This document shows, piece by piece, positions 23,720 to 60,851 of a DNA stretch of 64,000 bases (positions are counted from its first letter, which is position 1; every line of letters starts with the position of its first letter). The position numbers and the translations under genes were made by a program. The notes beneath the pieces were generated by a model, which was given only the letters and a program-made list of their open reading frames with translations, searched no databases and had not been told where the DNA came from. Origin of the DNA: Streptomyces fradiae (GTDB lineage: Bacteria; Actinomycetota; Actinomycetes; Streptomycetales; Streptomycetaceae); contig NZ_CP065958.1 of NCBI RefSeq assembly GCF_041270065.1, forward strand, positions 310,001 through 374,000, written 5' to 3'.

Positions 23720-24886
23720 TCAGACGGCGGGCGGCCGGTCGCCGACCAGCCACATGGCGAAGAACTGCGCGCCCCCGCCGTACGCGTGGCCGAGCGCCGT
23801 GCGCGCCCCCTCGACCTGGTGTTCGCCCGCCCGACCGCGTACCTGCAGGGCGGCCTCGGCGAAGCGGATCATGCCGGAGGCGCCGATGGGGTTGGTGGAG
23901 AGCACGCCGCCGGAGGGGTTCACGGGCAGGTCGCCGTCGAGTTCGGTGACCCCGGCCTCCGTGAGCTTCCAGCCCTCGCCCTCCTCTGCGAAGCCCAGGT
24001 TCTCCAGCCACATCGGCTCGTACCAGGAGAACGGCACGTACATCTCGACAGCGTCGATCTGGCGGCGCGGGTCGGTGATCCCAGCCTGCCGGTAGACGTC
24101 GGCGGCGCAGTCCCGGCCGGCCCGCGGGGAGACGAAGTCCTTGCCCGCGAAGAGGGTCGGCTCGCTGCGCATGGCGCCGCCGAGCAGCCAGGCCGGCGGG
24201 TGGGGCGAACGGGCCGCGCCGGTCCGGTCGGTGAGGACCATGGCGCAGGCGCCGTCGGAGGACGGGCAGGTCTCCGAGTAGCGGATCGGGTCCCACAGCA
24301 TCGGGGACGCCTGCACCTTCTCCAGGGTGAGGTCGTGCTCGTGGAGGTGGGCGTACGGGTTCTTGAGCGCGTTGCGCCGGTCCTTGTACGCGACGAGGGA
24401 GCCGATCGTGTCGGGGGCGCCGGTGCGCCGCATGTAGGCGCGCACGTGCGGGGCGAAGAATCCGCCGGCGCCGGCGAGCAGCGGCTGCTGGAAGGGCACG
24501 GGCAGGGACAGGCCCCACATGGCGTTGGACTCGGACTGCTTCTCGAAGGCGAGGGTGAGGACGGTGCGGTGCACCCGGGCGGCGACCAGGTTGGCGGCGA
24601 CCAGGGCGGTGGAGCCGCCGACCGAACCGGCGGTGTGGACCCGGAGCATGGGCTTGCCGACCGCGCCGAGCGCGTCGGCGAGATACAGCTCCGGCATCAT
24701 GACGCCCTCGAAGAAGTCGGGGGCCTTGCCGATCACGACGGCGTCGATGTCCGCCCAGCTCAGTCCGGCGTCCGCGAGGGCCCGCTGGGCGGCCTCGCGG
24801 ACCAGCCCGGCGAGGGAGACGTCGTGGCGGGCGGCGACGTGCTTGGTCTGGCCGATGCCGACGACGGCGACGGGTTCCTTAGGCAC
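23720..24886 (-). CDS. Lipid-transfer-type thiolase (acetyl-CoA acetyltransferase-like)
   Basis: A 388-residue SCP-x/Ltp-type thiolase fold starting at a GTG that overlaps the end of the upstream thiolase gene by 8 bases. Recognisable parts are VAVVGIGQTKH at the start, ADAGLSWADIDAVVIG, the VHTAGSVGGSTAL segment where the nucleophile would be, PSSDGACAMVLTDRTG, and the C-terminal LPVNPSGGVLSTNPIGASGMIRFAEAALQVRG and LGHAYGGGAQ. In mycobacteria such proteins work in pairs with an OB-fold partner in steroid side-chain metabolism, as retro-aldolases or thiolases. Translational coupling to the second thiolase implies a complex. Confidence 0.88.
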   Translation of the reverse strand: MPKEPVAVVGIGQTKHVAARHDVSLAGLVREAAQRALADAGLSWADIDAVVIGKAPDFFEGVMMPELYLADALGAVGKPMLRVHTAGSVGGSTALVAANLVAARVHRTVLTLAFEKQSESNAMWGLSLPVPFQQPLLAGAGGFFAPHVRAYMRRTGAPDTIGSLVAYKDRRNALKNPYAHLHEHDLTLEKVQASPMLWDPIRYSETCPSSDGACAMVLTDRTGAARSPHPPAWLLGGAMRSEPTLFAGKDFVSPRAGRDCAADVYRQAGITDPRRQIDAVEMYVPFSWYEPMWLENLGFAEEGEGWKLTEAGVTELDGDLPVNPSGGVLSTNPIGASGMIRFAEAALQVRGRAGEHQVEGARTALGHAYGGGAQFFAMWLVGDRPPAV

Positions 24887-25958
24887 GGTTCTCCCCTTCC
24901 AGGACGGCGACGAGGTTCTGCTGCAGGCAGGGTCCCGAGGTGGCGTGGGCCAGGGCGCGGTCGGACTCGCCGCGGTGGATGCGGGCGGCGGCCCCGCCGA
25001 GCCGGATCAGGCCCGCGGCCATGACGGGGTTGGCGGCGAGGGCGCCGCCCGAGGGGTTGACGCGGACCTCGTCGCCGAGGCGGAGGGCCTTGCGCAGCAC
25101 GACCTCCTGGGAGCTGAAGGGCGCGTGGAGTTCGGCGGTGTCGACGGGCCGGCCGGCGGCCGGGTCGAAGGCGCCGGCCCGTTCGGCGGCGAGCCGGGTG
25201 GAGGGCGAGTCGGTGAGGTCGCGGACGCCGAGCGCGTGCGCCTCGATGCGGTGGTCCATGCCGGTGATCCAGGCGGGCCGGGCGCACAGTTCGCGGGCCC
25301 GGTCCCCGGCGGCCAGGATGACGGCCGCGGCGCCGTCGCCGACCGGCGGGCAGTCGCCGGTGCGCAGCGGCGCGACCTGGTACGGCCCCTGCGGGCGGGC
25401 GCCGCGGAGCTGGGCGTGCGGGTTGGCGGCGGCGTCCTCGCGGCTGCGGGCGGCGATCGCGGCGAGCGCCGTCTCGTCGGTGTCGCCGGCGTCGACGAGG
25501 GCCTGGGCCTGGAGCGCGGCGAGGGCCACGGAGTCGGGCCAGAGCGGGGCGACGTAGTACGGGTCGAGCTGACGGCTGAGCACATCGCGCACGGAGCCCG
25601 GCGAGGACTTGCCGTAGGCGTAGACGAGGGCGGTGTCGGTCTCACCGGTGAGCAGCTTGACCCAGGCCTCGTACAGCGCCCAGGCGCCGTCCGCCTCGAC
25701 GTGGGACTCGGAGATCGGCGGCCAGGCGCCGACGCCGTCGAGGGCCATGGTGAAGGAGAAGGCGCGGCCGGCCAGGTAGTCGGAGGAGCCGGAGCAGGTG
25801 AAGCCGATGTCGGAGGTCTTGAGGCCGGTCTGCCGCAGCACGTCGTGGAGGACCGGCATGAGCATCTCGACCTCGGAGAGGTCGTCGGTGCGCCGGGTGT
25901 GGTCGGTCTGGGCGAAGGCGACGATCGCCACCTCCCGGCTCGGGCGCGCAGCGCTCAC
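24879..25958 (-). CDS. Lipid-transfer-type thiolase, second subunit
   Basis: A 359-residue thiolase-fold protein beginning at a GTG whose bases overlap the stop of the OB-fold gene (GTGA). It starts REVAIVAFAQTDHTRR and has the family's CSGSSDYLAGRAFSF, HVEADGAWALYEAW, CPPVGDGAAAVILAAGD and VNPSGGALAANPVMAAGLIRLGGAAARIHRG. It differs from its neighbour in having CSGSSD and HVEADGA at the positions that shape the active site. Paired Ltp-like proteins usually have one catalytic and one structural or altered member; I cannot say which this is. It is the middle gene of a three-gene coupled block. Confidence 0.88.
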   Translation of the reverse strand: MSAARPSREVAIVAFAQTDHTRRTDDLSEVEMLMPVLHDVLRQTGLKTSDIGFTCSGSSDYLAGRAFSFTMALDGVGAWPPISESHVEADGAWALYEAWVKLLTGETDTALVYAYGKSSPGSVRDVLSRQLDPYYVAPLWPDSVALAALQAQALVDAGDTDETALAAIAARSREDAAANPHAQLRGARPQGPYQVAPLRTGDCPPVGDGAAAVILAAGDRARELCARPAWITGMDHRIEAHALGVRDLTDSPSTRLAAERAGAFDPAAGRPVDTAELHAPFSSQEVVLRKALRLGDEVRVNPSGGALAANPVMAAGLIRLGGAAARIHRGESDRALAHATSGPCLQQNLVAVLEGENRA

Positions 25959-26917
25959 AGCAGCTCCTTGTACGTGTCGTAGTCGGCGTCCGGCTCGCCG
26001 CTGGGCCGGTAGTGGTCGGGGTAGCGGCCGCCCTCGGTCCACACGGGCTCGACCCGCATGCCCATCCGGACCTGGTCGTACGGGATGCCGCCGATCCGCC
26101 CGTGCAGGGCGAGGCCGGCGCCGTCCAGGGCGATGTGGGCGTAGACGTAGGGCACCTCGATGTCGAGGTGGCGCGCCTTGATGTTGACGATGCAGAAGGT
26201 GGTGACCGTGCCGCGCGGCCCGACCTCGACGCGCTCGGTGGTGGCGACCCCGCAGGTGGGGCAGGCGCCGCGGGGCGGCACGTACACCTTGGCGCAGGAG
26301 GGGCAGCGTTCGCCGACGGTCCGGCGCTCGGCGAGCGACCGCAGCCAGGCGGTCTGGGCGCGGCCGGGGGTGTAGTCGTAGTCGAGCCGGGCGGGGGTGA
26401 CGATGCCGGTGACGGGGTCGTCGAACACGCCGTCGTGCGGGCGGGGTCGGGGCTGCGCCGGGGTGCCCTCGTACGGCTCGAAGCACGCGATGTCCGTGAT
26501 GGCGCCCTCGCGCTCGGCGGCCCACCGGATCCGCACCCGCATCCCGGTGCGGACGGCCTCGGGGCCGGGCACGTCGAGGACGTGCAGGAGCGCGGTGTCG
26601 GCGCCGTCGGGGCGGACGAGCACCCAGGCGAAGGGGGTGGCCAGCGGCTGGCCGGGGCGCGGCTCGGGGTTCCAGGCCCAGGTGGTGACGGTGCCGGTGT
26701 CGCCGAGGGCGACGAGTTCGCGCAGTTCGGCGGCGGTCTCGGGGTCGTACTCGACGGGCGGCACGAGGATCCGTCCGGCCTCGGTGCGCACGCCGAGGAG
26801 GGTGCGGTCGCGGAGGCCGGTGAGGAAGGCGGATTGGACGGGGCCGAGGGAGCGGGTGAAGGGGAACTCGACGACGAGGGGGGCGCGGAGGGTTTCGGGC
26901 GGTGGGGTGACGGTCAT
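25955..26917 (-). CDS. OB-fold/DUF35 zinc-ribbon acyl-CoA-binding protein (double)
   Basis: A 320-residue protein starting at an ATG with AAGGAG 7 bases upstream. The C-terminal half (about residues 175-300) is a canonical DUF35 unit: a rubredoxin-like zinc ribbon with CPSC and CPTC, then an OB fold (GTVTTFCIVNIKAR, YVYAHIALDGAGLALHG, MGMRVEPVW). The N-terminal half (about 15-150) repeats the OB fold without the cysteines (GTVTTWAWNP, FAWVLVRPDGADTALLHVLD, TGMRVRIRW). Such proteins bind acyl-CoA and form heteromeric complexes with Ltp-type thiolases or MaoC-like hydratases. Its coupling to two thiolase genes fits that role. Confidence 0.9.
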   Translation of the reverse strand: MTVTPPPETLRAPLVVEFPFTRSLGPVQSAFLTGLRDRTLLGVRTEAGRILVPPVEYDPETAAELRELVALGDTGTVTTWAWNPEPRPGQPLATPFAWVLVRPDGADTALLHVLDVPGPEAVRTGMRVRIRWAAEREGAITDIACFEPYEGTPAQPRPRPHDGVFDDPVTGIVTPARLDYDYTPGRAQTAWLRSLAERRTVGERCPSCAKVYVPPRGACPTCGVATTERVEVGPRGTVTTFCIVNIKARHLDIEVPYVYAHIALDGAGLALHGRIGGIPYDQVRMGMRVEPVWTEGGRYPDHYRPSGEPDADYDTYKELL

Positions 26918-27162: not shown

Positions 27163-27984
27163 TCACTCCCGGCGGTACACCGGCGCCCGCTTCTCCGCGA
27201 ACGCGCTCGCGCCCTCCTTCGCGTCCGCCGTCGCGAAGATCGGCCACCCCCGCGCCAACTCCGCCGCCAAGCCGTCCTCCTCCGTCATCTCCGCCGTCTC
27301 GTAGACCGACGCCTTCACCGCCTCCACCGCCAGCGGCCCGCACTGATTCACCCGCTCCGCGATCTCGAGGGCCGCGTCCAGCGCCGTACCGTCCGGCACG
27401 ACGTGCCCGATCAGCCCGATCCTGGCCGCCTCCTCCGCGGTGTACGGGCGGCCGGTGAGGAGCATTTCGAGGGCGTGGGTGCGGGGGATCTGGCGGGGCA
27501 GGCGGACGGTGGAGCCGCCGATCGGGAAGAGGCCGCGGCGGACCTCGAAGAGGCCGAAGGTGGCGGAGGCGCCGGCCACGCGGATGTCGGTGCCCTGGAG
27601 GATCTCGGTGCCGCCGGCCACGCAGTGGCCCTCGACGGCGGCGATGACCGGTTTGCGCGGGCGGTGGTGGCGCAGCATGGCCTTCCAGTGCAGGTCGGGG
27701 TCGGCCTTCATGCGGTCCCGGTAGCGGTCGCCGCCCGCCATGCCGTCCCCGGCGAGCGCCTTGAGGTCCATGCCGGCGCAGAACGAGCCGCCGGCGCCGG
27801 TGAGGACGACGGAGCGGACGGTGTCGTCGGCGTCGGCGGCGAGCCAGCCGTCGTGGAGGCCGACCAGCATCGGCAGCGAGAGCGCGTTCTTCGCCTCGGG
27901 CCGGTTGAGGGTGAGGACGAGTGTGGCGCCCTCGCGTCGCACGGTGAGGTGTTCGGTTCCGCGGTGTTCGGTGCCGCCGCTCAT
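27163..27984 (-). CDS. Enoyl-CoA hydratase (crotonase superfamily)
   Basis: A 273-residue crotonase. Family features are VLTLNRPEAKNALSLPML, the first oxyanion-hole segment GSFCAGMDLKAL, and the second, EGHCVAGGTEILQGTDI. The end, WPIFATADAKEGASAFAEKR, is typical of EchA-type hydratases. The position of the catalytic glutamates should be checked: the segment FGLFEVRRGLFPIGGSTVRL has E at the site usual for the catalytic acid. It would hydrate an enoyl-CoA made by the pathway whose ligase is divergently encoded. It is the first gene of the leftward unit and is separated from the OB-fold gene by the palindromic repeat. Confidence 0.92.
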   Translation of the reverse strand: MSGGTEHRGTEHLTVRREGATLVLTLNRPEAKNALSLPMLVGLHDGWLAADADDTVRSVVLTGAGGSFCAGMDLKALAGDGMAGGDRYRDRMKADPDLHWKAMLRHHRPRKPVIAAVEGHCVAGGTEILQGTDIRVAGASATFGLFEVRRGLFPIGGSTVRLPRQIPRTHALEMLLTGRPYTAEEAARIGLIGHVVPDGTALDAALEIAERVNQCGPLAVEAVKASVYETAEMTEEDGLAAELARGWPIFATADAKEGASAFAEKRAPVYRRE

Positions 27985-28054: not shown

Positions 28055-28084
28055 TTTTCTGACACCTAGTCAGATTCTTTTGCG
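28055..28084. promoter_or_regulatory. Candidate operator, TCTGA-N7-TCAGA (copy 1)
   Basis: In the 182-bp gap between the divergent crotonase and acyl-CoA synthetase genes, TCTGA (28058-28062) and TCAGA (28070-28074) form a dyad that extends to CTGAC-N5-GTCAG. The surrounding 30 bases match a second element at 47461-47490 at 23 positions, including the flanks TTTT and ATT. This is the expected layout for a TetR-type repressor controlling both directions. Confidence 0.75.
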
Positions 28085-28166: not shown

Positions 28167-29789
28167 GTGGAGTACAACCTTGCCGACCTGTTCGAATCGG
28201 TCGTCGACGTGGTCCCGGACCGCGAGGCGCTGGTGTACGTCGACCACCCCGGCACCGGCGCGGAGCGCCGGCTGACCTATGCCGAGCTGGACGCCGCCGC
28301 CAACCGGCTGGCCCACCATCTGATCGGCGCGGGGCTGAGGCCCGGCGAGCACCTCGGCCTTCACCTGTACAACGGAGTCGAGTACCTGCAGACCGTGCTC
28401 GCCTGCCTCAAGGCACGGCTGGTCCCGGTCAACGTCAACTACCGGTATGTGGAAGGGGAGTTGGTCTACCTCTACCGCGACGCCGATCTGGCCGCGCTGG
28501 TCTTCGACGCCGAGTTCACGGCGCGCGTCGCGGGCGCCCTGCCGCAGACGGAGAAGCTGCGGCACCTCGTGCGGGTGGGGACCCCGCCCGAGGAAGCCCC
28601 GTCGCTGCGCTGTGTCGAGTTCACGGCGGCCGAGGCGGCCGGATCACCGGAGCGGGGCTTCGCGCCGCGCTCGCCCGACGATCTCTTCATCATCTACACC
28701 GGCGGCACCACCGGTATGCCCAAGGGGGTGATGTGGCGTCAGGAGGACCTGTTCTTCGCGGGGTTGTTCGGCGGGGACCCGAGCGGCGAGCCGGTGAAGC
28801 GGCCCGAGGAGCTGGCCGAGCGGGTCGCGGCCGGCGGGGCGGGGATCACCTTCTTCCCCACTCCCCCGCTGATGCACGGCACGTCCACGCTCACCTCGTT
28901 CATCGCCTTCGACTACGGGCAGCGGGTGGTCATCCACCGCAAGTACGTGCCGGAGGAGGTGCTGCGCACCATCGAGAAGGAGAAGGTGTCCAGCGTCTCC
29001 CTGGTCGGCGACGCGATGCTCCGTCCGTTGGTCGACGCGCTGCACGGACCGCTGAAGGGCACCGATCTGTCCTCGCTGTTCAGCCTGTCGTCATCCGGCG
29101 CGATCATGTCGGACACGGTGCGCGACGAGTTCCGGGCGCTCGCGCCGAACGTGCTCCTGCTCAACAACTTCGGTTCGTCCGAGTCGGGTTCGAACGGGCG
29201 GGCCACCGACGACTCCGGCCCCGACAGGGGCTTCCGGCTGGTCGTCAACGAGCGCACCCAGGTGGTCGACCCGGCCACCCACGAGCCGGTGCCGGTCGGC
29301 GAGGTCGGCCGGCTCGCGCAGCGCGGGCACGTACCGCTCGGCTACTACAACGACCCGGTGAAGACCGCCGAGACCTTCTTCCGGAAGGGGGCCGAACGCT
29401 GGGTGCTGCTCGGCGACATGGCCACCGTCGACGAGGAGGGCATCGTCACCGTCCTCGGCCGCGGCTCGCAGTGCATCAACACCGGCGGCGAGAAGGTCTA
29501 TCCGGAGGAGGTCGAGCAGGCGCTCAAGTCCCATCCGGACGTGTACGACGCGCTGGTCGCCGGAGTGCCCGACGCGAAGTGGGGCAACCACGTGGCCGCC
29601 GTCGTCCAGCTCCGCGACGGGGCCGCGCCGCTCGACCTGACAGCCGTCCAGGACCACTGCCGCACCCGGCTCGCCGGATACAAGGTGCCGCGCCAGCTGG
29701 TGCTCACCGACACCATCCAGCGCTCCCCCAGCGGCAAGGCCGACTACCGCTGGGCCCGTTCGGTGGCGGCGGAGGCGGACACCGCCTGA
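28167..29789 (+). CDS. Acyl-CoA synthetase (AMP-forming, FadD type)
   Basis: A 540-residue adenylate-forming ligase. The GTG start at 28167 has AGGAGG upstream. Motif A3 is IYTGGTTGMPKGV, with the later core motifs NFGSSESGS, LGDMATVDEEGIVTVLGRGS and the A8/A10 region ending IQRSPSGKADYRWA, whose lysine should be catalytic. It activates a carboxylic acid to its CoA ester. Together with the divergent crotonase, OB-fold and thiolase genes it resembles the mycobacterial fadD19/echA19/ltp grouping, so a branched or steroid-like side chain acid is a reasonable guess. No membrane or targeting signals are present. Confidence 0.93.
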   Translation: MEYNLADLFESVVDVVPDREALVYVDHPGTGAERRLTYAELDAAANRLAHHLIGAGLRPGEHLGLHLYNGVEYLQTVLACLKARLVPVNVNYRYVEGELVYLYRDADLAALVFDAEFTARVAGALPQTEKLRHLVRVGTPPEEAPSLRCVEFTAAEAAGSPERGFAPRSPDDLFIIYTGGTTGMPKGVMWRQEDLFFAGLFGGDPSGEPVKRPEELAERVAAGGAGITFFPTPPLMHGTSTLTSFIAFDYGQRVVIHRKYVPEEVLRTIEKEKVSSVSLVGDAMLRPLVDALHGPLKGTDLSSLFSLSSSGAIMSDTVRDEFRALAPNVLLLNNFGSSESGSNGRATDDSGPDRGFRLVVNERTQVVDPATHEPVPVGEVGRLAQRGHVPLGYYNDPVKTAETFFRKGAERWVLLGDMATVDEEGIVTVLGRGSQCINTGGEKVYPEEVEQALKSHPDVYDALVAGVPDAKWGNHVAAVVQLRDGAAPLDLTAVQDHCRTRLAGYKVPRQLVLTDTIQRSPSGKADYRWARSVAAEADTA

Positions 29790-44760: not shown

Positions 44761-46311
44761 TCACAGCGGACGCTCGCGCCCCTCCCAGTAGGGGTCGCGC
44801 AGCCTGCGCTTGTAGAGCTTGCCGTTCGGGTCGCGCGGCATGTGGGCGGTGAAGTCCACGGACTTGGGGCGCTTGTAACCGGCGAGCCGCGCCTCGCAGT
44901 GGGCGAGGATCGAGGCGGCGAGTTCGGGACCCGCCTCGTGGCCCTCGGCGGGTTCGACGACGGCCTTGACCTCCTCGCCCCAGTCGGTGTGCGGGATGCC
45001 GAAGGCGGCGGCGTCGGCGACGCCGGGATGGGCGAGGAGCGCGGCCTCGATCTCGGCGGGGTAGATGTTGACGCCACCGGAGATGATCATGTCGATCTTG
45101 CGGTCGCGGAGGAAGAGAAAGCCGTCCTCGTCGAGGACGCCGAGGTCGCCGACGGTGAAGAAGTCGCCGATGCGGTTCGACGCCGTCTTGGCCTCGTCCT
45201 TGTGATAGCGGAAGCCGCCGGTGCTCATCTTCATGTACACGGTGCCGAGTTCACCGGGGCCGAGCCGCCGGCCGTCGTCGTCGAAGACGGCGAGTTCGCT
45301 GATGGGCCAGGCGCGGCCGACGGTGCCGGGCTTCTTCAGCCAGTCCTCGGCGGTCGCGAAGGCGCCGCCGCCCTCGCTGGCCGCGTAGTACTCCTCGACG
45401 CACGTCCCCCACCAGTCGATCATGGCGCGTTTCACATGGTCGGGGCAGGGCGCGGCGCCGTGGATGGCGTGGCGCATCGCGGAGACGTCGTACCGGCTCC
45501 GTACCTCCTCGGGCAGGGCGAGGAGGCGGTGGAACTGGGTGGGCACCATGTGGGTGTGGGTGCAGCGGTGGGTGTCGATGAGCCGCAGCATCTCCTCGGG
45601 GGTCCACTTGTCCATGAGGACGAGCGGGTGCCCGATGTGCAGGGCGGCGCCGGCGAACTGGAGCACGGCCGTGTGGTAGAGCGGCGAGCAGACCAGATGC
45701 ACATGGCCGTTGAAGGGCTTGATGCCGAAGATGCCGAGGAAGCCGCCGAGATAGGTCTCCTCGGGGGTCTTGCCGGGCAGCGGGCGGCGGATCCCACGGG
45801 GCCTGCCGGTGGTGCCGGAGGTGTAGTTCATGACCCAGCCGAGGGTGCGGCCGTCGGGCGGGGTGCCGGGCCGCCCGTCGAGGAGTTCGGCGTACGGGCG
45901 GAAGCCGGGCACCGTACCGACGGCGTAGCGGTGGTCGGCCGGGAGGCCGGCCTCCTCGGCGGCGGCGCCGGCGGCCTCGGCGAAGCGCTCGTGGGCGATG
46001 AGGACCTTGGCGCCGGAGTCGGCGACGATCCAGGCGATCTCGGGGCCGACGAGGTGGTGGTTGACCGGCACCAGGTAGAAGCCGGCCTGACTGGCCGCCA
46101 GATAGGCGGTGAAGAACTCGATGCCGTTGGGCAGGACGACGGCGAAGGCGTCCCCGCGCTCCAGGCCGGCGGCGCGCAGGCCGTGGACGAGCTGGTTGGC
46201 GGCGGTGTGGAGGCGGCCGGCGGACCACTGCTCTCCGTCCGGAGCGGTGATCACGGTCCGGTCGGGTGCGGCGGCGGCCTGGGCCCAGAAGCCGTTGGGA
46301 GACCCCTCCAT
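44761..46311 (-). CDS. AMP-dependent acyl-CoA synthetase
   Basis: A 516-residue adenylate-forming enzyme with P-loop YTSGTTGRPRGIRRPLPG, the YYAASEGGGAFATAEDWLKK segment, DFFTVGDLGVLDEDGFLFLRDRKIDMI and the ending MPRDPNGKLYKRRL, whose lysine is the catalytic one. It belongs to the fatty acid or aromatic CoA ligase branch. The ATG at 46311 overlaps the stop of the upstream nitronate monooxygenase (TGATG), so the two proteins are translationally coupled, suggesting that the CoA ester and the flavin enzyme serve one pathway. The operator at 47461 would control both. Confidence 0.93.
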   Translation of the reverse strand: MEGSPNGFWAQAAAAPDRTVITAPDGEQWSAGRLHTAANQLVHGLRAAGLERGDAFAVVLPNGIEFFTAYLAASQAGFYLVPVNHHLVGPEIAWIVADSGAKVLIAHERFAEAAGAAAEEAGLPADHRYAVGTVPGFRPYAELLDGRPGTPPDGRTLGWVMNYTSGTTGRPRGIRRPLPGKTPEETYLGGFLGIFGIKPFNGHVHLVCSPLYHTAVLQFAGAALHIGHPLVLMDKWTPEEMLRLIDTHRCTHTHMVPTQFHRLLALPEEVRSRYDVSAMRHAIHGAAPCPDHVKRAMIDWWGTCVEEYYAASEGGGAFATAEDWLKKPGTVGRAWPISELAVFDDDGRRLGPGELGTVYMKMSTGGFRYHKDEAKTASNRIGDFFTVGDLGVLDEDGFLFLRDRKIDMIISGGVNIYPAEIEAALLAHPGVADAAAFGIPHTDWGEEVKAVVEPAEGHEAGPELAASILAHCEARLAGYKRPKSVDFTAHMPRDPNGKLYKRRLRDPYWEGRERPL

Positions 46312-47420
46312 CACTGCGCGCTCCTTCCGGCGATGCGGTTGATCCGGTCGACGGCCTGCTCGAAGCCGCGGGTGAGGTCGTCGAAGACCTGCTGCACGCT
46401 GCGCTCGGAGTTCATCCGGCCGACGATCTGGCCGACCGGAGTGCCGAGCAGCGGGGCGACCTCGTACTTCTGGATCCGGGAGACCGCCTCGGCGACGAGC
46501 AGGCCCTGCAGCGGCATGGGCAGCGGGCCGGGTCCGGCCGGGTCGTCCCAGGCGTCGGTCCACTCGGTGCGCAGCTGGCGGGCGGGCTTGCCGGTGAGGG
46601 CGCGGGAGCGGACGGTGTCGCCGGAGCCGGCGGCGAGCAGCTTCTCGGTCAGGGCGCGGGAGTGGAGTTCGGCCTCGGTGGTGGTGAGCCAGAGCGAGCC
46701 GAGCCAGACGCCCTGGGCGCCGAGGGCGAGGCCGGCGGCGATCTGCTCGCCGCTGCCGATGCCGCCGGCGGCGAGCACGGGCAGCGGGGCGACGGCGTCG
46801 ACGACGTCGGGGGTGAGGACCATGGAGGCGATCTCGCCGGTGTGGCCGCCGGCCTCGTACCCCTGGGCGACGACGATGTCGATGCCGGCCTCGGCGTGGT
46901 GGCGGGCGTGCCGGGCGCTGCCGGCGAGGGCGGCGACGAGGACGCCGTGCTCGTGGGCGCGGGCGACGACGTCGGCGGGCGGGGAGCCGAGGGCGTTGGC
47001 GAGGAGCTTGATGGGGTAGTCGAAGGCGACGTCGAGCTGGCTGCGGGCGACCTGTTCCATCCAGCCGGTGATGCGCCAGCCGGAGGTCTCGCCCTCGGCG
47101 AGTTCGGGGACGCCGTGCTTGGCGAGGGTCTCGCGGACGAACGCGCGGTGTTCCTCGGGGATCATCGCCTCGACGTCCGCCTCGGTCACGCCCTCCACCT
47201 TCTTCGCGGGCATGACGACGTCGAGGCCGTACGGCAGGCCGTCGGTGTGCTCCTGCATCCAGTCGAGGTCGCGGGCGAGGTCGTCGGGGGCGGTGTAGCG
47301 CACGGCGCCGAGGACGCCGAACCCGCCTGCTCTGGTGATGGCGGCGGCCACTGCGGGGAAGGGCGTGAAGCCGAAGATGGCGTGCTCGATCCCCAGGGTG
47401 CGACTCAGCTCCGTCTTCAT
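46311..47420 (-). CDS. Nitronate monooxygenase-like flavoprotein
   Basis: A 369-residue FMN-binding TIM-barrel protein of the nitronate monooxygenase/2-nitropropane dioxygenase family. Features are FGFTPFPAVAAAITRAGGFGVLGAV at the start, the flavin-binding EAGIDIVVAQGYEAGGHTGE and the phosphate loop PVLAAGGIGSGEQIAAGLALGAQGVWLGS. Family members oxidise nitronates such as propionate-3-nitronate to aldehydes, or serve as enoyl-reductase or dehydratase relatives. The coupling with an acyl-CoA ligase hints at an acyl-CoA-related substrate. The ATG start has a poor ribosome site. The promoter and a dyad are in the 98-bp gap to the divergent serine hydrolase gene. Confidence 0.9.
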   Translation of the reverse strand: MKTELSRTLGIEHAIFGFTPFPAVAAAITRAGGFGVLGAVRYTAPDDLARDLDWMQEHTDGLPYGLDVVMPAKKVEGVTEADVEAMIPEEHRAFVRETLAKHGVPELAEGETSGWRITGWMEQVARSQLDVAFDYPIKLLANALGSPPADVVARAHEHGVLVAALAGSARHARHHAEAGIDIVVAQGYEAGGHTGEIASMVLTPDVVDAVAPLPVLAAGGIGSGEQIAAGLALGAQGVWLGSLWLTTTEAELHSRALTEKLLAAGSGDTVRSRALTGKPARQLRTEWTDAWDDPAGPGPLPMPLQGLLVAEAVSRIQKYEVAPLLGTPVGQIVGRMNSERSVQQVFDDLTRGFEQAVDRINRIAGRSAQ

Positions 47421-47460: not shown

Positions 47461-47490
47461 TTTTCTGATGCAGTGTCAGATTGTTTCGCG
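47461..47490. promoter_or_regulatory. Candidate operator, TCTGA-N7-TCAGA (copy 2)
   Basis: TCTGA (47464-47468) and TCAGA (47476-47480) form a dyad between the divergent nitronate monooxygenase and serine hydrolase genes, 41 bases upstream of the former. It matches the element at 28055-28084 at 23 of 30 positions, including the TTTT and ATT flanks. The probable regulated operon is the leftward one. Confidence 0.75.
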
Positions 47491-47518: not shown

Positions 47519-49381
47519 ATGACGGAGACGACGAGAACACCGGGGTACGGACACGGGTACGCGTACGGCGGCACGGGACCGAGCCGCCGGGCGTTCGGCG
47601 GTGGACTGCTCGCGCTGGGAGGTGCGCTGATGATCGGTACGGTGCCGGGGGCCGCGGCCGCTCCCGATCCGGGGGCCGGCGGGGGCGGCGGCCCGGCCGG
47701 CGGGGCGGCCGGTGAGGCGCGGCGGACGACGCTGGCGCGCGGGTCCGCCGAGCGGGCCGGGCTGCTGCCCGCACACCTGGACCGGCTCGTCACGGAGGCC
47801 GAATCCTTCCTGCGCCCCTCCCCCACCCACCCCTGGTACGCGGGCGCGGTGCTGCTCGCCGGGCGGGGCGGGACGGTGGCGCTGCACCGCCCGATCGGCT
47901 CGGCGGTCCGCTACGCGGCGTACGACGAGAAGACCGACACCGGGGTGGAGCTGCCGGCCGACGAGCAGATCCCGATGCGCGAGGACACCGTCTTCGATCT
48001 GGCCTCGGTCTCCAAGCTGTTCACCTCGCTGCTCGCGGTGCAGCAGATCGAGCGCGGGGCGCTGGTCCTGGAGGAGCGGGTCACGGCGTATCTGCCGGAG
48101 TTCGGGGCCGGCGGCAAGCAGGATGTCACGGTCCGTCAGCTGCTCACCCACACCTCGGGGTTCCGGGCCTGGATCCCGCTCTACAAGGAGCCGAGCCGGG
48201 AGGGGCAGCTGCGGCTGCTGTGGAACGAGAAGCCGGCGAACCCGCCGGGCACGGTCTATCTGTACTCCGACCTGAATCTGATCACGCTGCAGCTGGTCCT
48301 TGAGGAGATCACCGGTCGCACTCTGGATCAGCTGCTCCGAACCGAGATCACCGCTCCGCTCGGGATGCACCGCACGCGTTTCAATCCCCCGCTCTCGTGG
48401 CGGCCGCGGATCGCCGCCACCGAGGACGCGCGGCTGCCGTGGTCCGGGCTCGACCGGGGCATGGTGTGGGGCGAGGTGCACGACGAGAACGCGTACGGGA
48501 TGGGCGGGGTGGCCGGGCACGCCGGGGTGTTCTCGACCGCGTGGGACCTGGCGGTCCTCGCCCGCACGCTGCTCAACGGCGGTGCGTACGGGGACGCCCG
48601 GATCCTGTCCCCCGCCTCCGTCGAGCTGATGTTCACCGACTTCAACACCGCGTTCCCCGGCGACGAGCACGGGCTCGGCTTCGAGCTCTACCAGCACTGG
48701 TACATGGGCGCGATGGCCACCCCGCGCACGGCCGGCCACACCGGATTCACCGGCACCAGCCTGGTCCTGGACCCGACGACCGACTCCTTCCTGGTCGTCC
48801 TCGGCAACTCGGTCCACCCGGTGCGCACCTGGCGCTCCGGCTCCGCGCCCCGGGTCGCCACCGCCGACGCGCTGGCCCGCGCGGTGCCGGTCCGCCCGGC
48901 CCGGGGCCGTACCGCCTGGTTCTCCGGCATGACCAGCGCCACCACCGCGACCCTCACGCTCCCCGAAGTGCCGGGCGCCACCCGCTTCGAGTGCGCCGTC
49001 TGGTGGGACACCGAACCCGGCGCGGACGCCGCCGTCCTGGAGGCGTCGACGGACGGCGGCACGACCTGGGCCCCCGTCCCCTTCACCACCGCCGCCCCCG
49101 CCGACCCCGCCGAGGACCACCCCACCGGCTCCCTCACCGGCTGGTCCGGCCGCCGCTGGCACCGCCTCACCGCCGACCTCACCGCCGATCTCACCCCCTC
49201 CTCCCCCACCCCGCCCCGCCTCCGCTGGCGCTCCACCACCGACCGCCGCTACGTCGGCCGCGGTGTGTACGTGGACGCGATCCGCCTCCTGGACACCTCG
49301 GGCCGCCCGCTGTTCGACGAGTCCCGCCCGGCGGACCGGTCCCGGATCGAGGCGACGGGGTGGACGGCGTCGGCGGACTGA
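47519..49381 (+). CDS. Tat-exported serine hydrolase (beta-lactamase/esterase family)
   Basis: A 620-residue exported protein starting at an ATG after GGGAGAGG. A twin-arginine signal is seen at residues 22-48 (SRRAFGGGLLALGGALMIG, cleavage near AAA). Residues 85-430 are the beta-lactamase-type domain: nucleophile and lysine S163-V-S-K166 (SVSK), a YSDLN motif in place of the usual Y-x-N, and HTGFTGTS at the third motif. The last 180 residues are a beta-rich accessory domain rich in Thr, Trp and Arg (ATTATLTLPEVPGATRFECAV, DGGTTWAPVPF), as in carbohydrate- or protein-binding appendages. It may be an esterase or D-Ala-D-Ala carboxypeptidase-like enzyme; the reaction is not certain. Confidence 0.9.
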   Translation: MTETTRTPGYGHGYAYGGTGPSRRAFGGGLLALGGALMIGTVPGAAAAPDPGAGGGGGPAGGAAGEARRTTLARGSAERAGLLPAHLDRLVTEAESFLRPSPTHPWYAGAVLLAGRGGTVALHRPIGSAVRYAAYDEKTDTGVELPADEQIPMREDTVFDLASVSKLFTSLLAVQQIERGALVLEERVTAYLPEFGAGGKQDVTVRQLLTHTSGFRAWIPLYKEPSREGQLRLLWNEKPANPPGTVYLYSDLNLITLQLVLEEITGRTLDQLLRTEITAPLGMHRTRFNPPLSWRPRIAATEDARLPWSGLDRGMVWGEVHDENAYGMGGVAGHAGVFSTAWDLAVLARTLLNGGAYGDARILSPASVELMFTDFNTAFPGDEHGLGFELYQHWYMGAMATPRTAGHTGFTGTSLVLDPTTDSFLVVLGNSVHPVRTWRSGSAPRVATADALARAVPVRPARGRTAWFSGMTSATTATLTLPEVPGATRFECAVWWDTEPGADAAVLEASTDGGTTWAPVPFTTAAPADPAEDHPTGSLTGWSGRRWHRLTADLTADLTPSSPTPPRLRWRSTTDRRYVGRGVYVDAIRLLDTSGRPLFDESRPADRSRIEATGWTASAD

Positions 49382-49410: not shown

Positions 49411-50319
49411 TTACAGGCTGGGTTCCGCCGCTTCCTTCAGCGCGTCCAGGACGGGGCGGATCAGGGGGTGGGTCTCCGCGCCCCGGCGGACCGCGGCGAA
49501 GACGCGGCGGGTGGGGGCGACGCCGTCGACCGGCCGGACGACGACGCCGGTGAGGTCGGTGCCGAGGAGGGCGGAGCGCGGGACGAGGGTCACGCCGGCG
49601 CCGGCGGCGGTCAGGGCGACGACGGCGCGGAAGTCGTCGGAGACGTGTTCCAGGCGGGGCGCGAAGCCCGCGTACTCGCAGGCGAGGACGGTGACGTCGT
49701 GGCAGGGGTTGCCGGCGGACTGGCCGATCCAGGGGTCCTTGGCGAGGTCGGCGAGGGCGATCCGTTCGCGGTCGGCGAGGGCGTGGTCCGGCGGCAGGAC
49801 GACGTCGAAGGGCTCGGCGTAGAGCGGGACGCGGGTGAGCCGGGCGTCGTCCTCGCCGGGCGCGCCCCGGTACTCGACGGCGACCGCCACGTCGACCTGC
49901 CGGTCCAGGACCATGAGCAGGCTCTCGTCGCCCTCGGCGTCCTGGACCCGCACCCGGATGCCGGGCGCGGTGCGGGCGAGGGAGCCGATGGCGGGGGCGA
50001 CGACCAGGCCGATGCCGGTGGCGAAGGCGGCCACCGTGACGGTGCCGGCCTCGCCCGAGCCGTACGCGGCGAGCTCGGCCTCGGCCCGTTCCAGCTGGGC
50101 CAGGACGGCGTTGGCGTGGCTCAGCAGGATCTCCCCGGCGGGGGTGAGCCGGGCGCCCTTGGCGCTCCGCTCCACCAGCCGGTGGCCGGTCTCCTGCTCC
50201 AGGGCGGCGAGCTGCTGGGAGACCGCGGAGGGGGTGAGATAGAGCGCGGCGGCAGCCGCCGTGACGGTACGGTGGTCGGCCACCGCCCGGAGGATGTGCA
50301 GCCGCCGCGCTTCGATCAT
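49411..50319 (-). CDS. LysR-family transcriptional regulator
   Basis: A 302-residue LysR protein: winged helix-turn-helix at residues 1-60 (LHILRAVADHRTVTAAAAALYLTPSAVSQQLAALEQ), then a long linker helix and a substrate-binding domain (AGTVTVAAFATGIGLVVAPAIGSL, GEDDARLTRVPLYAEPFDVVLPPDHALADRERIALADL). Its start codon lies four bases after the kbl stop codon on the same strand, so it is probably transcribed with tdh-kbl. That arrangement suggests it controls the threonine catabolic operon, although most LysR genes are divergent from their target. Confidence 0.92.
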   Translation of the reverse strand: MIEARRLHILRAVADHRTVTAAAAALYLTPSAVSQQLAALEQETGHRLVERSAKGARLTPAGEILLSHANAVLAQLERAEAELAAYGSGEAGTVTVAAFATGIGLVVAPAIGSLARTAPGIRVRVQDAEGDESLLMVLDRQVDVAVAVEYRGAPGEDDARLTRVPLYAEPFDVVLPPDHALADRERIALADLAKDPWIGQSAGNPCHDVTVLACEYAGFAPRLEHVSDDFRAVVALTAAGAGVTLVPRSALLGTDLTGVVVRPVDGVAPTRRVFAAVRRGAETHPLIRPVLDALKEAAEPSL

Positions 50320-60248: not shown

Positions 60249-60851
60249 ATGGCGGACGTCAAGCACTTCGATCCGGACGCGACCCTGGAGACCGTCCTGC
60301 GGCTCTTCTGGCAGCGGGGTGCGGCCTCGACCGGTGTCCAGGACATCGTGACCGCGACCGGCGTCAACCGCTCCAGCCTCTACGCCACCTTCGGCGACAA
60401 GCAGGCCCTCTACCGTGCTGCCCTGAACCGCTACACAGACCTGCACTCCCGGCCCGCCTTCCGGCACCTCGCGGAGGACGGACGCGGCCTGCCGGCGCTC
60501 GTCGCGTTCTTCGACTCGCTGATCGAGGTGCGCTGTTCGGGGCCGTACGCCCGCTGGGGCTGCCTGGTCGTCAACGCCCACGCCGGTGCGGAGAACGGCG
60601 ACCCCGAGGTGCGCGCCCTGCTCGACGCGCACCACGAGTGGCTGCGCGAGGCGCTGCACACGGCCCTGCTCGGCGCGGCGGAGCGGGGACAGCTCGCGCC
60701 GGGCGTCGATCCCGCGTCCGCGGCCGGCGTGCTCGCCCTCCTCGCGTACGGCGTCAACCTGCGCTCACGCGCGGGTGCCGACGCCGCCGACCTCGCCGAC
60801 TCCGTACGAGCCGCCCTCGCCCCGCTCGCCGCGCCGGCCGCCCGTTCGTGA
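60249..60851 (+). CDS. TetR-family repressor
   Basis: A 200-residue TetR protein. Residues 10-55 are the DNA-binding domain (ATLETVLRLFWQRGAASTGVQDIVTATGVNRSSLYATFGDKQAL), and the rest is a helical ligand-binding domain with a single cysteine pair (VRCSGPYARWGCLVVNAH). It resembles regulators of small-molecule or oxidative-stress genes. The ATG at 60249 follows GGCGGGGG. The two palindromes upstream are its expected operators, repressing both itself and the divergent peroxiredoxin. An exposed pair of cysteines could sense oxidants, but this is inference. Confidence 0.93.
   Translation: MADVKHFDPDATLETVLRLFWQRGAASTGVQDIVTATGVNRSSLYATFGDKQALYRAALNRYTDLHSRPAFRHLAEDGRGLPALVAFFDSLIEVRCSGPYARWGCLVVNAHAGAENGDPEVRALLDAHHEWLREALHTALLGAAERGQLAPGVDPASAAGVLALLAYGVNLRSRAGADAADLADSVRAALAPLAAPAARS

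Follow-up and report, generated by a model that had tools for sequence, protein, structure and literature searches.

Two operator-like dyads of Streptomyces fradiae in a probable CoA-catabolism regulon under a candidate SCO4421-type TetR regulator

Two short palindromes in a 64-kb stretch of the Streptomyces fradiae genome are most probably operators of one large CoA-catabolism regulon, controlled by a TetR-family protein of the SCO4421 type. The stretch, called the window below, covers positions 310001-374000 of a genome that consists of a single contig of 7,883,796 bases. The original prediction placed both dyads in one regulon, and the excess of the motif, its placement, its conservation and its co-occurrence with a regulator all point the same way. 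The same prediction called for an unlinked TetR-type regulator; a strong candidate is a TetR protein of 215 aa, encoded 2.97 Mb away, which we infer to bind the dyads. The coordinates of the features are collected in Table 1.

Table 1. Dyads, neighbouring genes and candidate regulator gene (window positions, except for the last line, which gives genome and locus positions)
Feature	Position	Strand	Remarks
Operator-like dyad 1, TCTGACACCTAGTCAGA	28058..28074	.	between divergent crotonase and AMP-ligase genes
30-base element 1 of the original prediction, with TTTT and ATT flanks	28055..28084	.	23/30 against element 2
Operator-like dyad 2, TCTGATGCAGTGTCAGA	47464..47480	.	before NMO gene
30-base element 2 of the original prediction	47461..47490	.	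23/30 against element 1
Thiolase-like (lipid-transfer type) gene	23720..24886	-	
Gene without Pfam match	24879..25931	-	same direction as ChsH2-like gene
ChsH2-like protein gene (zf-ChsH2, OB_ChsH2_C)	25955..26917	-	245-base gap to crotonase gene
Crotonase-family gene (ECH_1)	27163..27984	-	start 74 bases from dyad 1
AMP-binding acyl-CoA ligase gene	28167..29789	+	start 93 bases from dyad 1
AMP-binding acyl-CoA ligase gene	44761..46311	-	one-base overlap with NMO gene
Nitronate-monooxygenase-family (NMO) gene	46311..47420	-	start 44 bases from dyad 2
Serine-beta-lactamase-family gene	47630..49381	+	far side of dyad 2; start uncertain, in-frame upstream ATG possible
Candidate TetR gene	3,326,274-3,326,918 plus stop (L040:3274-3921)	+	TetR_N and TetR_C_38

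The two dyads and their surroundings

The 30-base elements around the dyads are identical at 23 of 30 positions, just as predicted, and when both strands of the window are scanned, no other 30-mer reaches 20 matches to the first element. The window has exactly two copies of the core CTGAYNNNNNRTCAG. Chance had been judged an unlikely source of such a pair, and 100 dinucleotide shuffles of the window agree: they contain the core 0.17 times on average and never twice. With two mismatches allowed, the excess disappears (8 occurrences found in the window, 10.5 expected), and thus only the strict form of the motif is informative there.

Dyad 1 lies in the gap between the crotonase (ECH) and AMP-ligase genes, as originally described, and the crotonase gene probably forms one transcription unit with the ChsH2-like gene. 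The description of dyad 2 holds on one side: the dyad does precede the NMO and AMP-ligase genes, but the gene on its other side belongs to the serine-beta-lactamase family, so that CoA metabolism is found on the NMO/ligase side only. Neither dyad has a regulator gene beside it, again as described, although a LysR-type gene is found near dyad 2, about 2 kb off. This LysR-type gene (49411-50319) adjoins an aminotransferase gene, and nothing ties it to the dyads. The sole TetR-type gene seen in the scan of the window (60249-60851) is 12.8 kb from dyad 2.

Sites across the S. fradiae genome

The genome contains 20 exact copies of TCTGAN7TCAGA, against 0 for the reversed control pattern. Allowing one mismatch raises the count to 101 (9 for the reversed control), and a single mismatch at an outer position accounts for 31 further sites (control 0). 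The dyads have the form expected of operators, being short inverted repeats in promoter gaps, with 15 of the 20 exact hits intergenic (two of these overlap a gene end by 5 bases). Three hits fall in genes, and the other two are one in the anticodon arm of tRNA-Arg(ACG) and one, without the Y/R pair, that reaches a called gene start.

The core of the motif can be written CTGAY-N5-RTCAG, and the loci fetched from S. fradiae give the consensus tCTGACg...cGTCAGa. Coding sequence makes up 87% of these loci, yet 47 of their 51 core sites fall outside protein genes; the tRNA arm and a copy upstream of an rRNA operon are included in the 47. The loci were selected for holding hits, with one-mismatch sites taken from those listed, and so cover a part of the regulon. 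Not every one-mismatch site is an operator, as can be seen from GCTGACTGGGAATCAGA (L055:2001-2017), which has three copies in the genome; the one that was checked is separated by 367 bases from a 16S rRNA gene downstream of it.

TCTGACTACGGATCAGA, within the anticodon arm of tRNA-Arg(ACG) (L013:5975-6048), is a built-in false positive in many actinobacterial genomes. At L007:6001-6035 (near 2,296,024), an exact TCTGAN7TCAGA without the Y/R pair runs into a second palindrome, AGAACTGATACCAGTTCT, which could be a KstR-like site.

Genes next to the sites

The original prediction would have lost its footing if genome-wide hits had been random with respect to genes. They are not: 12 of the 15 intergenic exact sites stand by genes for CoA enzymes, LLM proteins, aldehyde dehydrogenases (ALDH) or SDR proteins. 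Nine of the 15 flank a CoA-enzyme gene. The genes at these nine sites are crotonase with AMP-ligase, NMO with AMP-ligase, ChsH2-like with thiolase, MaoC/MFE-2, thiolase with P450, acyl-CoA dehydrogenase with thiolase, acyl-CoA dehydrogenase with ChsH2-like, AMP-ligase with Amidohydro_2, and an ATP-grasp CoA ligase. Three more sites flank an LLM, aldehyde-dehydrogenase or SDR gene, and the remaining three are found by isochorismatase and PNPOx genes, a DUF7064 gene, and NMT1 and elongation-factor-type GTPase genes.

The one-mismatch set adds a FadD3-family ligase and a lipid-transfer thiolase, along with LLM, SDR, Amidohydro_2, flavin reductase, crotonase and DoxX genes, and further a second group of an LLM, a ferredoxin-reductase type and a catalase. 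Its neighbours also include genes with no such relation (SRAP, NlpC/P60, M23, CutA1 and endonuclease I), and part of the set has therefore probably arisen by chance. A sigma-factor gene and a LuxR-type response-regulator gene each flank a single one-mismatch site.

Sites in other genomes

The form TCTGAYN5RTCAGA is present in all 61 Streptomyces genomes sampled, with 1 to 17 copies each and a summed control count of 2. In six of these genomes (G010, G029, G036, G048, G052 and G053) the tRNA hit is the only one of the exact form. Absence of the regulon from these six would count against the SCO4421-type TetR, which is present there at 73-94% identity, but a core search without the outer pair speaks against such an absence, clearly in G036 with 28 sites and G048 with 32 (controls 0), and modestly in the others: G052 and G053 have 15 each (controls 3 and 1), G029 has 9 (control 3) and G010 has 3 (control 0). 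G036 and G048, which have no exact hit outside the tRNA, suggest that the outer T/A pair has drifted within a lineage.

Loss of the dyad in close relatives that keep both operons had been named as evidence against a shared operator. Within the fetched Streptomyces loci the dyad precedes all five crotonase orthologs found (G008, G009, G013, G035 and G056) and all four NMO orthologs found (G008, G013, G018 and G035), which favours the prediction to the extent that loci chosen for having sites can; the one case independent of that selection is the NMO site of G035, without the outer A. Across the species of these loci the half-sites are kept, the 5-base centre varies, and the TTTT and ATT flanks are mostly kept.

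A survey of 197 genomes of the class shows that two further actinobacterial families, f13 and f14, are motif-rich, with 14-87 exact sites in the five genomes of f13 and 0-14 in the twelve of f14. In loci from two f14 genomes, 29 of 30 core sites are intergenic in DNA that is 93.5% coding, and the neighbours include crotonase, SDR, acyl-CoA dehydrogenase, amidohydrolase, AMP-ligase and ChsH2-like proteins (10 proteins among those listed). The highest count comes from a 5.1-Mb genome of f13 (G143), where 87 exact sites stand against 0 for the reversed pattern. In its loci L215-L234, 29 of 60 core sites are intergenic and 87% of the DNA is coding, so that weak or chance matches may make up many of its sites.

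The candidate regulator

The candidate is a member of the TetR family, matching PF00440 with 26.1 bits (cut-off 24) and PF19352 with 246.9 bits, and its AlphaFold model is all-helical with a mean pLDDT of 91.3. Scoring 150 of 286 candidates gave at least 105 TetR_N matches in the genome. An ortholog is found in 61 of 61 Streptomyces sampled, at 68-100% identity, and its 80 nearest named relatives are nearly all from Streptomyces.

Within its own genome the candidate gene belongs to the densest cluster of sites, one of which is 2.5 kb away. This co-location is not significant alone: when 105 random positions are drawn, at least 8 sites within 20 kb are seen in 34% of trials. No TetR gene recurs directly beside the sites within the fetched Streptomyces loci. 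In two f14 genomes (G167 and G073), the TetR gene nearest to a site, about 870 bases away, is the ortholog of the candidate.

The presence of an ortholog (E up to 1e-30) can be compared with the number of sites across the 197 genomes of the class. Outside the candidate's own family, more than 5 sites are found in 13 of 19 carriers vs 1 of 162 non-carriers (Fisher p=1.6e-14, with genomes counted as independent of relatedness). By family, with its own included, the figures are 4 of 7 with an ortholog and 0 of 33 without (p=4e-4, relatedness ignored). Within f14, seven carriers have 6-14 sites, and the five non-carriers have 0, 1, 1, 2 and 8; the count of 8 belongs to G208, a 68% complete genome in which the ortholog was not found. 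Three exact sites or fewer are present in 11 of 35 carriers.

Sites also accompany the regulator gene itself. Around 14 orthologs from outside Streptomyces (48,416 bases), 16 core sites fall within about 1.5 kb of the gene at 11 of the 14 loci; 200 shuffles of the same loci give a mean of 0.12 and a maximum of 2. At the f12 locus and at each of the six f14 loci, a site is followed by one same-strand ORF (249-291 aa) and then by the regulator; in G167 this ORF is an SDR. In three of four f18 loci a site precedes the first start codon of the regulator ORF by about 100-170 bases. No core site was found at the f4 locus or at one of two f13 loci. Outside Streptomyces, we presume, the sites often head the operon of the regulator itself.

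Among the 80 named relatives the start codon of the regulator lies inside AAGCTGACGGCATGACAGGAC at 79 loci; this is a near-dyad with one core mismatch, overlapping the coding sequence. The strict core CTGAYGN3CRTCAG occurs 112 times in the 1.395 Mb around these 80 genes, at 68 of the 80 loci, with a reversed control of 0; for S. fradiae the count is 27 over 7.88 Mb. Proteins 42-53% identical to the candidate keep a nearly invariant recognition-helix segment.

Near the candidate gene are an afsK-like gene (a Pkinase and PQQ-repeat protein) and AfsR. In Streptomyces coelicolor the TetR gene SCO4421 lies close to afsK, and it is expressed in spore chains, less so in a whiA mutant; its deletion has no phenotype, its function is called unclear, and the available part of the report gives neither operator nor regulon (PMC3878966). 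We take the candidate to be the SCO4421 ortholog because of the position of its gene near afsK, and the equivalence is positional.

Proposed mechanism and relation to known systems

By analogy with other TetR-family regulators, from which occupancy, sign and ligand are taken, the candidate would most likely act as follows. A dimer of the regulator would bind CTGAY-N5-RTCAG, usually T/A-flanked, at dispersed promoters of genes that activate and break down acyl-CoA-type substrates. Sitting on a dyad near the start codons, the repressor dimer would block the promoter or promoters on one or both sides, and it would be released by a CoA thioester or another small lipophilic intermediate once this has accumulated. 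The regulator would also control its own gene.

The proposed regulon is of the KstR-like TetR type, with no prior description found in the open-licence literature searched. KstR and KstR2, TetR proteins of mycobacteria and rhodococci, repress cholesterol catabolism through many dispersed palindromic operators, according to the available part of the report (PMC1995591). The likeness consists in a single TetR-type protein with dispersed palindromes before CoA-thioester catabolic genes of similar classes. The half-sites differ, being CTGAC/GTCAG here and TnnAACnnGTTnnA for KstR as quoted in the original prediction. The proteins differ as well: the candidate carries TetR_C_38, and a separate KstR-like protein of S. 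fradiae does not track the sites.

The nearest solved structure to the candidate is that of EthR from Mycobacterium tuberculosis (TM-score about 0.78, 17-18% identity), with a weak sequence match in the N-terminal part; EthR regulates other genes. SCO3201 is another Streptomyces TetR protein, tied to lipid metabolism and fatty-acid genes, but its site is TGGCAGATTCTGCCA in the available part of the report (PMC7324645), unlike the dyads. Consensus strings of the motif were not found in the open-licence literature searched, and none of the titles or abstracts listed there describes the motif; it could be described elsewhere.

More tentatively, and with the balance somewhat against so broad a reading, this may be an old actinobacterial CoA-thioester regulon under the SCO4421-type TetR that governs the degradation of terpenoid-, steroid- or ring-type carboxylic acids. 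It would be common to Streptomyces and two or more other families, in which one genome has as many as 87 exact sites. It may even tie substrate use to sporulation or germination, a link suggested because SCO4421 is reported as spore-expressed. If the regulon is real, a TetR protein found in every Streptomyces sampled and reported without phenotype would gain a function, and acyl-CoA dehydrogenases, ligases, crotonases, LLM monooxygenases and P450s with unassigned substrates would join one set. That gene set would be a handle on the natural compounds that soil bacteria degrade, and the operator could serve for target prediction in further families of actinobacteria.

Alternative explanations

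A different regulator, co-occurring with the SCO4421-type protein, could bind the dyads, with that protein merely among its targets. We consider this unlikely, if worth keeping in mind. Four sites also fall within 20 kb of the KstR-like TetR gene of S. fradiae, and the regulators profiled were two TetR proteins. Against this, the SCO4421-type protein co-occurs with the motif across families and is lost together with it in f14, and the order of site, ORF and regulator is repeated across loci.

Direct control by the KstR-like TetR of S. fradiae (L041:18020-18646:+) is very improbable. KstR governs CoA-type sterol catabolism, and this protein is related to it (PDB 3bjb, 5cw8) and is encoded between sites. 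It is set aside by its distribution, profiled within Streptomyces: KstR would be expected wherever its operator is abundant, but an ortholog was not found in G044, which has 7 exact sites, nor in G010, G037 and G050 (best E in these four genomes 3e-10 to 2.3e-9). It scores 199.9 for the NCBIfam KstR family (NF033703), below the equivalog cut-off of 280, and the KstR half-sites quoted in the original prediction differ from those of the dyads. The SCO4421-type candidate is not listed for NF033703. The KstR-like gene (near 2,293,020) stands amid its four core sites in a second cluster of CoA and redox genes.

Least probable of all is that the dyads are transcription terminators or chance palindromes: a terminator scan does flag dyad 1 (6-pair stem with a T-rich tail; 1 found, 0.3 expected), and a few exact hits are clearly non-operator (the tRNA arm and in-gene hits), but dyad 1 is flanked by divergent gene starts, a T-run is absent from many other sites, the sites are placed in upstream or divergent gaps near start codons, controls are near zero, and the half-sites stay stable between species while the centre varies.
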